Shown here in pieces: positions 40,051 to 43,763 of a stretch of DNA of 54,464 nucleotides. The notes beneath the pieces were generated by a model. It saw nothing but the letters and a program-made list of their open reading frames with translations, was not told the DNA's origin and did not search any database. The DNA lies in the NCBI GenBank assembly GCA_009840355.1, contig VXNZ01000037.1, positions 1 through 54,464 of the forward strand, written 5' to 3'. Position 1 is the first letter of the stretch. Every line of letters starts with the position of its first letter. This DNA is from Chloroflexota bacterium (GTDB lineage Bacteria > Chloroflexota > Dehalococcoidia > Lucifugimonadales > JADFKI01). Position numbers and translations under genes: made by a program.

Positions 40051-41073
40051 CTAGCTTCCCATGTCGGGCGTGTACTTGCCTTGCCTTGCTGCGCTGGTTA
40101 GCATCGCGCGGCGGTAGTATTCTTGCTGCGCCGCCTCCGTGTTCGCCGCGCTGCCGCCCCACGCCTGCAACGGCGCCGCCTGCAAGCCGCGTCCGTATGA
40201 GAAGCTGAGTTCCCACGGCGTGTTCATGCCGGCTGCGGCGCGGTTTATGGCGTCGAGATTTTCGGTGGCTTCGTCGTCGCTCTGCCCGCCGCTCAGGAAG
40301 ACGATGCCGGGCACGGCAGCCGGCACTTCGCGCATAAGGCAGTCCAGAGTGCGCTCCGCGACTTCTTGGGCGTTCGCGCGGTCGTCGGCGTCCTTGCCGG
40401 ACAGGACCATGTTCGGCTTCAGCAATGTGCCGCGCAAATCGACACGCTGCCGCGCGAGCTGGTCGTATAGTGCGTGCAGCGCGTTCAGCGTAACGTCGTG
40501 GCAGCGTTCGATGCTATGCTCGCCGTCCATCAGCGTCTCCGGCTCGACGATGGGCACAAGCCCGGCTTCTTGGCTGAGCGCGGCGAACCGCCCGAGCAGG
40601 TGCGCGTTGGCGTCGATGCAGTATTGGCTGGGGATGTTGTTGCCGATGGTGATGACCGCGCGCCACTTTGTAAAGCGCGCGCCGATTTCGTAGTACTCGG
40701 CGAGTCGGTCGCGCAAGCCGTCCAAGCCGTCGGTAATGAGTTCGCCCTCGGTGTTGGCGAGCGGATTGGTGCTGCGGTCAACCTTTATGCCGGGTATGAC
40801 GCCCTGCTCTTGCAGGACGTCCACTATAGGCGTGCCGTCCGCGCCGCGCTGTCGCAGCGTTTCGTCGTACAGAATGACGCCGCTGATGTACTCGTTCGCT
40901 CCCGGCGTGCGGAACAGCATCTCGCGGTAGTCGCGGCGGCTCTGCTCGGTGGATTCGACATTGATGGAGTCGAACCGGCGCTTGATGGTGTTGGTGCTCT
41001 CGTCTGCGGCGAGAATGCCCTTGGCAGGCGCGACAAGCGCGCGTGCGGTATCGTTCAGTTCGCCAATTGTCAT
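40051..41073 (-). CDS. fba: Fructose-bisphosphate aldolase class I
   Basis: This 340-residue Schiff-base aldolase cleaves fructose-1,6-bisphosphate. It matches the eukaryote-like class I family: LVAPAKGILAADESTNTIKRRF, EYISGVILYDETLRQ, ALYDQLARQRVDLRGTLLKPNMVL with the Schiff-base Lys in LLKPNMV, and VPGIVFLSGGQSDDEATENLDAIN. It ends at ELSFSYGRGLQAAPLQAWGG and a short tail. The start at 41073 is chosen because AGGAGA lies about 8 bases upstream. It is the first gene of a six-gene minus-strand run. Confidence 0.95.
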   Translation of the reverse strand: MTIGELNDTARALVAPAKGILAADESTNTIKRRFDSINVESTEQSRRDYREMLFRTPGANEYISGVILYDETLRQRGADGTPIVDVLQEQGVIPGIKVDRSTNPLANTEGELITDGLDGLRDRLAEYYEIGARFTKWRAVITIGNNIPSQYCIDANAHLLGRFAALSQEAGLVPIVEPETLMDGEHSIERCHDVTLNALHALYDQLARQRVDLRGTLLKPNMVLSGKDADDRANAQEVAERTLDCLMREVPAAVPGIVFLSGGQSDDEATENLDAINRAAAGMNTPWELSFSYGRGLQAAPLQAWGGSAANTEAAQQEYYRRAMLTSAARQGKYTPDMGS

Positions 41074-41160
41074 CGCAAATCTCCTAGCGGGTATTTGCCT
41101 CACATTTTAGCACACAGGGCACTTAAATCTATGCACAGGACAGGGGCTTTCGATGGCACT

Positions 41161-41251
41161 CTGAATGAAGTGAAGGGTCTAAAATCGCTGTGTGAGCAAG
41201 ACAGCCCATAGTCAGCGATTTCAGATTTATCGAAGCGAGAAATAACATAGC
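41161..41251. repeat. Palindromic repeat with TCTAAA-TCGCTG arms
   Basis: The left arm GGTCTAAAATCGCTG (about 41177-41191) faces CAGCGATTTCAGATTT (about 41214-41229) across about 22 bases. The flanks GAATGAAGTGAAGGG and TCGAAGCGAGAAAT match the repeat at 53102-53190. This is a dispersed, MITE-like inverted repeat family. Confidence 0.6.
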
Positions 41252-41277
41252 GGAGGAACACAATAGCCGAAAGCCCT

Positions 41278-41304
41278 TGATGTACAGGATATGACGGGAT
41301 GAGA
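41278..41304 (+). repeat. Dispersed CAGGATGGG-type repeat
   Basis: This shares a 15-base TTGATGTACAGGATA block with 43822-43836, followed by GACGGGATGAGA. It is the same family as the units at 31051 and 47483. Confidence 0.5.
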
Positions 41305-41389
41305 TTGGCTTTGATCTATATTGTTCATCCCGTTTATCATGCAGCCTGTCAGTTTGCATCCCGTGCCTTCTATCTTGATGAGCGTGCGG

Positions 41390-41845
41390 CTAGGCGTCGC
41401 GCAGCGCCTGCAATATCTCAATCGAGTGGTGGGCGTGGCTTTTTATGGCGAATTCGTTGTGGTGGGCGCTTTGGATTTTGCCAGAAGAGTCTATGACATA
41501 GGTTACGCGGGATGTGCCTAGCCCAAAGCGGCGTTGGACGTCGTAGAGGCGGCGTACTTCGCCGGTACGGTCAGACGCCAGGCTATATGGCAAGCCGAGT
41601 TCGCGTGCGAAGGCGTCGAGCGCGGCGGACGTGTCCGTGCTGATGCCTAGGACGACGGCATCGGATTGCGCGATGTTGTCGTGGCTGTCGCGGAACTCCG
41701 CGGCTTCTATGCTTCAGCCGCGTGTGCCTGCGCGCGGGAAGAAGAATATCACGACATTTTGACCGCGATGTTCGGACAAGATGAAGGTGTCGCCGGAGTC
41801 TAGTGTCAGAGTGAAGTCTGGGGCTATTGTGCCGACTTTTAACAT
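41390..41845 (-). CDS. Peroxiredoxin (BCP/PrxQ type), candidate selenoprotein with in-frame UGA at the peroxidatic position
   Basis: Reading through one TGA (41714-41716) gives a 151-residue peroxiredoxin of normal BCP length. It runs VGTIAPDFTLTLDSGD, then VVIFFFPRAGTRG, then the TGA, then SIEAAEFRDS, VVLGISTDTSAALDAFA, LPYSLASDRTGEVRRLYDV and SRVTYVIDSSGKI. In this family the sequence is FYPKAxTPGCT, and the Cys there is the peroxidatic residue. The TGA replaces exactly that codon, and nothing else in the frame is disrupted. A SECIS-like hairpin follows immediately. The resolving Cys five residues on is Ala, as in 1-Cys types. I infer selenocysteine; a one-base TGC-to-TGA nonsense mutation is the alternative. 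The ATG at 41845 is used; one at 41860 is also in frame. Confidence 0.75.
41683..41719 (-). promoter_or_regulatory. Candidate bacterial SECIS element
   Basis: On the mRNA, GGCU (including the U of UGA) can pair with AGCC 37 bases on. Inside is a perfect 5-pair stem, CGCGG/CCGCG, capped by the loop AGUU. The loop starts 16 bases after UGA and has G at its second position. This fits the known bacterial SECIS model (apical loop 16-37 bases from UGA, G among the first two loop bases). It is also coding sequence, as bacterial SECIS elements are. Confidence 0.6.
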
Positions 41846-41870
41846 AATTACATCATCCATCCAGTTATGC

Positions 41871-41937
41871 AGTCCTGTCCCCATCCCCCGCTTTCGCGAG
41901 GGCAGGCTCTTACCTTCGCCTTGAGAGGGACGGGACT
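41871..41937. repeat. 67-base inverted repeat between LLM and peroxiredoxin genes
   Basis: AGTCCTGTCCC (41871-41881) pairs with GGGACGGGACT (41927-41937) with one G-T wobble. The inner part contains CCCCCGCTTTCGCGAGGG. It may be a mobile palindrome or an RNA structure downstream of the monooxygenase stop. Confidence 0.5.
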
Positions 41938-43077
41938 CTACCTCTGTGTGCTGCCGGGGGCAAAGCGGGCGCGTTGTAGTTCTTCGGTGGTTATGGGTGG
42001 CTGCTCTAGGAGCTCGGCGTAGAGGGTGACAGGCGGATGGTAGTCTCGCAGGGCGGGTAGCACTTCTTCGCCCATCAGGCGGACGGAGCGCATCAGCTTT
42101 TCGTGCTCGATGCCGCCGAACATCATCCAATTGCTGATGTGCGTCGCTCCTGCGTCCGCGGCGCGGCGGAACTTCTCGATGACCGTCTCAGGGCTGCCGA
42201 AATACAGCCTGTCCAAGAACGCATCATCGTCTAGCTCGCCGTCGAATGGGCTTGCGTCCGCCTTGCCGTTCGTCACATCGTGGCGGTTTAAGCCGCGCTG
42301 GGCGCGAGTCTGCCAGCGCACATAGGGCAGCGCCTCGAGCGCCTCTTCGTCAGTCGGCGCGACATGCGTCATGCATTGCAGGGCGAGCGATGTGCTGCCA
42401 TCTGCTGCAATTCCGAGCGGCTTTCCCGCCGCCTTGCGAGCCTGCAAATACGAGCCGAGCTGCCGTTTCACGCCATCCATGCCTAGGTTGCTCGACGATA
42501 ATGGCAACATGTCGTGCTGCGCTGCGAGCTGCATGGATTCCACGCTCGTGCCGGAAATCCACAGCGGCGGGTGCGGTTTTTGCATCGGCTTGGGGAACAC
42601 GGTTATCGGATTTTCGATGCGGACATACTCACCGTCGTATGTGAACGATTCGTCCGATGTCCACGCCTTCAGCAGCACCTCGAATGTCTCTTGGAACTTA
42701 GTACGCGACTCACCGAGCTCACTGCCGAAGCCTGCCATCTCGTAACCCTGATAGCCCCTGCCGATGCCGCACATAAGCCTGCCGTCGATGAGATTGTCGA
42801 GCACGGCGATCTCTTCGGCGAGGCGCAGCGGCTGCCACACGGGCAGGATAACGGACGCGGTGCCGACTTTGATGCGCCGCGTGCGCTGCCCAATGTAGAG
42901 CGCCTGCATCAGTGGCGCGGGCGAGTTGCCGTAATTCGTGAAGTGGTGCTCGGCAATGAGGCAGTAGTCGAAGCCCATCTCCTCCGAGTACTGCACCTGC
43001 TGCACGCCCTCCTCAAAGAGCGTCTTCCAATTGCGCAGCGTCGGGTTGGGCCATTCCAAAAACAAGCCGAATTTCAA
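41938..43077 (-). CDS. LLM-class flavin-dependent (luciferase-like) monooxygenase
   Basis: This 379-residue protein has the bacterial luciferase-like barrel: KFGLFLEWPNPT, YCLIAEHHFTNYGNSPAPLMQALYIGQRTRRIKVGTASVILP, PLRLAEEIAVLDNLIDGRLMCGIGRGYQGYEMAGFG and PLWISGTSVES. The AEHHF and GIGRGY stretches line the F420/FMN site. These enzymes oxidise diverse organics with reduced flavin. SAR202 Chloroflexi are known for many such genes. A TTG start (43077) with a weak GGAC site is the best visible. The gene overlaps nothing and ends next to the inverted repeat. Confidence 0.92.
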   Translation of the reverse strand: MKFGLFLEWPNPTLRNWKTLFEEGVQQVQYSEEMGFDYCLIAEHHFTNYGNSPAPLMQALYIGQRTRRIKVGTASVILPVWQPLRLAEEIAVLDNLIDGRLMCGIGRGYQGYEMAGFGSELGESRTKFQETFEVLLKAWTSDESFTYDGEYVRIENPITVFPKPMQKPHPPLWISGTSVESMQLAAQHDMLPLSSSNLGMDGVKRQLGSYLQARKAAGKPLGIAADGSTSLALQCMTHVAPTDEEALEALPYVRWQTRAQRGLNRHDVTNGKADASPFDGELDDDAFLDRLYFGSPETVIEKFRRAADAGATHISNWMMFGGIEHEKLMRSVRLMGEEVLPALRDYHPPVTLYAELLEQPPITTEELQRARFAPGSTQR

Positions 43078-43142
43078 TTCACTGTCCTTTATCGTGGTTT
43101 GTAGTTCGTCGCTATCTTGTCAAACTGAACGCATCCTGCCCA

Positions 43143-43763
43143 TCAGTTATACCGGCTCATCGCTTCGTCGATGCCTTCGGATAGCAGGCAGGCGATGGCG
43201 TCGGCGGCGCGGGCTACGGTTCCGTCCACGACCTCGCGTTCGTTGGCTTCCATGGTGCCTATGACATGCTCAATCTGCCCCGCGTGTCCTGCGCCTTCGG
43301 GCGGGCGACCTACACCTATGCGGAGACGCGGGAAATCTTGGGATCCTGTCGCTTCGATGATGGATTTGATGCCGTTGTGTCCGCCCGCGCTGCCCTTGCG
43401 CCGCATGCGGATCTTGCCCGGCGGCAGGTTAATGTCGTCGCACACAACCAGCAGCTTGTCCATCGGCATACTGTAGCGTGCCGTCAGATAGCGGACAGCC
43501 GCGCCGCTGCGGTTGACGAATGTACGCGGCTTGACCAGAATGACGCGCCGGCTGTCAATCTCGCCCTCGCCGATGATAGACGACCTGTGCCGCCGTTCAA
43601 GCGTGATGCCATGCTTGTTCGCCAGCGCGTCGATGCACCAGAAGCCTGCGTTGTGTCGTGTGCCGGCGTATTCGGGACCGGGGTTTCCCAAGCCGACGAC
43701 GAGGGATGGTGGATGGAAGCGCTTATCTTGTTCGTCGCGTCTGGGGCGTAGTAGGTTGAGCAT
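43143..43763 (-). CDS. pth: Peptidyl-tRNA hydrolase
   Basis: This 206-residue enzyme releases tRNA from stalled peptidyl-tRNA. The family core is complete: LVVGLGNPGPEYAGTRHNAGFWCIDALA with the catalytic His in TRHNAG, FVNRSGAAV, LLVVCDDINLPPGKIRMRRKGSAGGHNGIKSII with the catalytic Asp and GGHNGIKS, and FPRLRIGVGRP. About 17 extra residues precede the core. No good ribosome binding site is visible at 43763. Confidence 0.95.
   Translation of the reverse strand: MLNLLRPRRDEQDKRFHPPSLVVGLGNPGPEYAGTRHNAGFWCIDALANKHGITLERRHRSSIIGEGEIDSRRVILVKPRTFVNRSGAAVRYLTARYSMPMDKLLVVCDDINLPPGKIRMRRKGSAGGHNGIKSIIEATGSQDFPRLRIGVGRPPEGAGHAGQIEHVIGTMEANEREVVDGTVARAADAIACLLSEGIDEAMSRYN

Follow-up and report, generated by a model that had tools for sequence, protein, structure and literature searches.

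Does an in-frame TGA within a bacterial peroxiredoxin gene encode selenocysteine (Sec), or does it betray a broken gene, a misassembled sequence or a different genetic code? The question is raised by prxU, a gene in a contig of 54,464 nucleotides (hereafter the window) from a Chloroflexota bacterium. The draft genome to which the window belongs, as contig 37 of 57, is 3.28 Mb in size and 97% complete. The initial annotation, made from the DNA alone, placed a candidate Sec peroxiredoxin at coordinates that are correct; the strand, which it did not give, is minus (Table 1). From the evidence set out below we infer, with very high confidence, that the product of prxU is a BCP/PrxQ-type peroxiredoxin and a selenoprotein, in which Sec would be inserted at the TGA and serve in peroxide reduction.

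Table 1. Positions in the window of prxU and the features discussed.
Feature	Positions	Strand	Basis or detail
prxU, BCP/PrxQ-type peroxiredoxin, 151 residues with Sec44	41390..41845	minus	ATG 41845-41843, TAG 41392-41390
In-frame TGA, assigned as selenocysteine 44 at the peroxidatic position of PxxxTxxU	41714..41716	minus	TGA/TGC among orthologues; invariant C/U column
Active-site motif PRAGT, Pro37 to Thr41 of PxxxTxxU	41723..41737	minus	Thr41 at least 90% conserved (alignment A1)
Arg113, the catalytic Arg of peroxiredoxins (GTSR-VTYVID)	41507..41509	minus	Invariant column R113 (alignment A1)
Candidate bacterial SECIS hairpin CGCGG-AGUU-CCGCG	41689..41702	minus	Folding, geometry, conservation

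The reading frame and its predicted product

When TGA is read as Sec (U) the translation is MLKVGTIAPDFTL...FFFPRAGTRG-U-SIEAAEFRD...LYDVQRRFGLGTSRVTYVID... and this triplet, at residue 44, is the single TGA in a frame of 151 codons that is otherwise intact. The Pfam AhpC-TSA domain spans it (residues 4-126, E 4.7e-31). Translation and domain match together bear out the earlier description of a BCP/PrxQ-type frame of normal length with the TGA as sole interruption. The best NCBIfam model is the thioredoxin-dependent thiol peroxidase (BCP), with an E value of 1.5e-25 that falls under the curated cut-off, and the score against the PrxU equivalog NF040737, 43 bits, is below the NCBIfam cut-off of 270.

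Alignment puts the TGA on the column of the peroxidatic Cys in the PxxxTxxC motif, as had been proposed. The PxxxTxx(C/U) signature is complete, with P37, T41 and U44, and the catalytic R113 is invariant; the conservation of Thr41 and Arg113 was judged from alignment A1, which contains 28 proteins. A thioredoxin-fold AhpC-TSA domain is found by Pfam, in an AlphaFold model and by structure comparison. The model, calculated with Cys substituted for Sec, has a mean pLDDT of 95.8.

Among solved structures the closest in sequence (E 4e-21, approximately 31% identity) is Bcp1 of Sulfolobus solfataricus (PDB code 3drn), an archaeal protein that carries no Sec. Its fold matches the predicted model with a TM-score of 0.95 and a deviation of 0.9 Å, and like the prxU product it has no Cys at the PrxQ resolving position. 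Further solved relatives identified by sequence are other BCP/PrxQ and AhpE proteins. Mycobacterium tuberculosis AhpE (PDB codes 1xxu and 4x0x), titled a 1-Cys peroxiredoxin, also resembles the model (TM-score 0.92), although it has Cys rather than Sec and belongs to a different subfamily.

The translation of prxU contains no Cys in any of its 151 residues. A resolving Cys five residues past the peroxidatic position is a trait of PrxQ, not universal in BCP proteins; here that position, residue 49, is Ala. The other Sec members of the 35-member clade described below have between zero and two Cys each. With no Cys the protein would have no internal resolving thiol and would need an outside reductant. 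In the mechanism that we propose, Sec44, positioned by Pro37, Thr41 and Arg113, would attack H2O2 or an organic hydroperoxide to form a selenenic acid, which an external thiol or a thioredoxin-type partner would then reduce. Such a 1-Sec mechanism is likely, the one basis for it being the absence of Cys; substrate and reductant are those that we infer.

Might Sec be inserted into a protein that is not a peroxidase, such as a thiol-disulfide or sensor protein? Peroxidase activity is a prediction and the product offers no Cys partner, which would suit that idea. The full PxxxTxxU signature with its invariant Arg113 and the close match of the modelled structure to the peroxidases Bcp1, PrxQ and AhpE point the other way, and we regard a non-peroxidase role as unlikely.

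Codon 44 among orthologues

The nearest orthologue, from another species of the same genus (genome G002, 88% protein identity), has TGA at codon 44, and so have orthologues at 71% (G060), 68% (G061, G062 and G064) and 58% identity. Cys at this codon is seen only in orthologues of 54% identity or less, and in paralogues. Orthologues with TGC include those of G059 and G025 and locus L065. Comparison with homologues, one of the checks suggested by the initial annotation, thus places TGA in the close relatives and Cys only further away. A sequencing or assembly error at a TGC or TGT codon might be suspected in a draft genome, but TGA stands at the same codon in independent assemblies from other species (G002, which is SB0664_bin_29, G060 to G064, and APA_bin_2), and several paralogues in the host genome carry TGA at redox codons. 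We consider such an error highly improbable.

A maximum-likelihood tree of 58 relatives, built with the codon-44 column excluded, places prxU in a supported clade of 35 members (100/97). Codon 44 specifies Sec in 28 of these and Cys in the other seven, always in the same column. The Cys members consist of a single lineage (L073) and a weakly supported cluster (L035, L036, L065 and L074 to L076). tRNA-Sec and SelB are retained in all five of the Cys-bearing genomes that were checked (G065, G059, G025, G247 and G248), so their changes at codon 44 are not due to loss of the Sec machinery. Exchange of Sec and Cys between orthologues is typical of selenoproteins, and the combination by which a bacterial selenoprotein is recognized, an in-frame UGA at a functional position with homologues that have Cys there, is found in prxU.

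The gene could in principle be a decaying Cys peroxiredoxin, with a nonsense mutation at the active-site codon. A single base change converts TGC or TGT to TGA, and orthologues with TGC exist. Against this pseudogene stand the sharing of the TGA by 28 diverged members of the clade, the Sec machinery encoded in the host genome, an otherwise undamaged frame and the pattern of substitution downstream. After the TGA, prxU differs from its G002 orthologue by 13 nonsynonymous and 19 synonymous changes (dN 0.055, dS 0.30, dN/dS approximately 0.18). For the G060 orthologue the values are dN 0.22 and dS 1.11 downstream of the TGA, with dN 0.20 and dS 0.77 upstream. The low dN relative to dS beyond the TGA shows constraint at the protein level, unlike the behaviour expected of a truncated gene, and purifying selection acts on this part of the frame. 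Conservation of the TGA and the frame over deep divergence in practice already refutes the pseudogene, which we judge very improbable.

With respect to gene order, positions 40051-43763 of the window hold genes for a peptidyl-tRNA hydrolase, an LLM-type oxidoreductase, PrxU and a class I fructose-bisphosphate aldolase, a block that is conserved in G002. In three other genomes of the genus (G001, G003 and G004) the 1.5 kb upstream of the aldolase is devoid of Prx and LLM genes. Beyond the genus, the closest relatives of the Prx belong to another family (f19). Together the absences and the f19 relatives make transfer or differential loss of prxU possible.

Decoding of TGA in the host genome

Is the organism equipped to insert Sec? 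A search for selA, selB, selD and tRNA-Sec finds all four in the genome to which the window belongs. The tRNA-Sec (66.4 bits) exceeds the Rfam cut-off and has a UCA anticodon; SelB (E 4e-102) covers the entire 581-position model; SelA and SelD are matched at E values of 2e-159 and 1e-116, respectively, and SelD itself (L025 1501-2421) has an in-frame TGA, in the motif CAGUASK. Judged by gene content, the host is able to insert Sec. With this machinery present, and close relatives that have TGA rather than Cys, the original proposal that the gene encodes Sec is supported. Each of the 16 genomes examined for tRNA-Sec has it, and 212 of the 247 genomes of the Chloroflexota order have SelB, the proportion among the best assemblies being 89 of 95. 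The selB of G002 (C391:1908-3761) is interrupted by one TAG and by one TAA, which may reflect faulty assembly of that fragmented draft.

The host genome has 12 AhpC-TSA-type genes, of which seven, prxU included, have one in-frame TGA, in every case at a redox-active position. Chance does not explain such a distribution, nor therefore the TGA of prxU. The six siblings are two TxxU peroxiredoxins (FTGGU and TWGU), two Prx-like UPxC genes (WUPFC/WUPYC) and two thioredoxin-like genes (YCUINC and TWUGTC). These thioredoxin-fold genes, each with one TGA at a redox motif, are located in the host genome (G000) at C25:170220, C3:22055, C49:55604, C11:81751, C14:16137 and C17:62516 (loci L001, L007, L003, L008, L090 and L091, respectively); in the thioredoxin-like gene on C14, Cys and Sec codons are adjacent (FWTYCUINC) within a long open frame. 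A SelW/Rdx-type protein (L092 1501-1728, minus strand) has its in-frame TGA in YCVPUQYH. One weak TGA match in the AhpD/CMD family (C17:6368, E 1.6e-4) was left uncounted. With prxU and at least eight other genes that carry an in-frame TGA, candidate selenoproteins in the host genome number nine or more, which exceeds the threshold of six used to define selenoprotein-rich organisms (PMC5029168).

So many in-frame TGAs among redox genes might also arise if TGA had been reassigned throughout the genome, as in codes of type 4 or 25, with residue 44 then Trp or Gly. TGA, though, terminates 13 of the 33 long frames in the window and so is still an ordinary stop codon, the in-frame TGAs that were inspected are restricted to redox-active positions, and a tRNA-Sec (UCA) is present with SelA, SelB and SelD. 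Global reassignment is extremely improbable, and Sec remains the residue assigned to codon 44. A scan of the window for TGA beside redox motifs of the C/S/T type gave many chance hits, mostly in the wrong frame within longer genes, and on inspection by eye only the TGA of prxU lay in what looks like a redox active site.

A hairpin that follows the UGA had been put forward as an argument against chance nonsense. The hairpin is real: the sequence after UGA is AGCAUAGAAGC-CGCGG-AGUU-CCGCG, which gives a 5 bp stem and an AGUU loop that starts 16 nt past the UGA and has G at its second position. Published limits for the bacterial SECIS (bSECIS) element are a stem of 4 bp or more, a loop of 3-9 nt with G in its first two positions, a distance of 16-37 nt from the UGA and a minimum free energy of -7.5 or lower (PMC13188914). 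Spacing, loop and G lie within these limits. The energy is marginal, at -7.4 kcal/mol for the core, -8.9 with flanks and -6.9 under a stricter evaluation, compared with the published -7.5. An equally good hairpin lies downstream of 10% (at -7.5 or lower) to 24% (at -5 or lower) of all the window's TGA triplets, and the free-energy z-score for the 55 nt downstream of the UGA in prxU is near zero (-0.14). The hairpin by itself was rejected as proof of Sec; it is weak against chance nonsense when taken alone, and supporting rather than decisive.

Its conservation among TGA genes is a better argument than its presence. The 14-nt core is identical in prxU, the G002 orthologue (L034) and five further orthologues (L066 to L070), and synonymous sites vary less in the hairpin codons than in the remainder of the gene. 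When prxU is compared with four orthologues, codons for conserved amino acids are identical in 6/6 cases in the hairpin and 42/90 elsewhere (p 0.013), a comparison of seven sequences gives 5/5 and 21/72 (p 0.003), and a qualifying hairpin (-5 kcal/mol or lower) follows the codon in 24 of 36 TGA genes as opposed to 2 of 25 Cys genes among the collected relatives, although we caution that the p-values and gene counts overstate the statistical weight since the sequences compared are related. In the mechanism proposed, the hairpin just past the UGA would direct SelB and Sec-tRNA(Sec) to insert Sec at residue 44, a process that would compete with termination.

Known relatives and wider meaning

The prxU product belongs to "Prx, TxxU" (COG1225/PF00578), a known family that is treated as an established selenoprotein family in a 2026 review (PMC13188914). 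In the Sargasso Sea set 43 Sec-peroxiredoxins (TxxU, COG1225) were reported, which ranked second in abundance among the selenoprotein families already known (PMC1088965), and 253 members were reported from the GOS metagenomes (PMC2398784). Likened by description, the marine proteins share with prxU the domain, the COG (Bcp), Sec in TxxU and a bSECIS-type hairpin after the UGA. They are metagenome sequences, whereas prxU is in a near-complete genome with Sec machinery and its product is free of Cys. PrxU of Eubacterium acidaminophilum is cited as an experimentally described Sec-peroxiredoxin (reference 83 in PMC13188914). It too has Sec at the peroxidatic position; the window protein is shorter, 151 residues as opposed to the 233 positions of the PrxU model.

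Selenoprotein-rich bacteria have been reported mainly from the Deltaproteobacteria, Clostridia and Synergistetes (PMC5029168). Sec formate dehydrogenases are on record in marine Chloroflexi. Most sponge-symbiont bins of several phyla are reported to have SelA and SelB (PMC5649159), so there is precedent for Sec use by bacteria of this kind. A literature search with few subscription journals covered turned up no description of this Chloroflexota group's selenoproteome, and nothing was found on SAR202 selenoproteins.

Sec-peroxiredoxins are already known, and the greater interest lies in the pattern across the order. What is unusual is how widely the Sec-Prx clade extends through the order, and that Sec and Cys are exchanged in genomes with the Sec machinery still in place. 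The Sec-Prx set of this one order is apparently large and little described. Standard annotation would stop prxU at the UGA, leaving a 43-residue fragment, and databases therefore probably lack this enzyme and its siblings for the group. On balance we favour the view that this Dehalococcoidia-like order is an undescribed selenoprotein-rich group, with near-universal Sec machinery, its own Sec-Prx subfamily whose members can function without Cys, and repeated exchange of Sec and Cys in genomes that retain the machinery. The Sec and Cys orthologues of one subfamily, both in Sec-competent genomes, provide natural pairs with which to test the benefit of Sec in a peroxidase. With SelB present in 212 of its 247 genomes and no fewer than nine candidate selenoproteins in a single genome, the order would lengthen the list of selenoprotein-rich bacteria.
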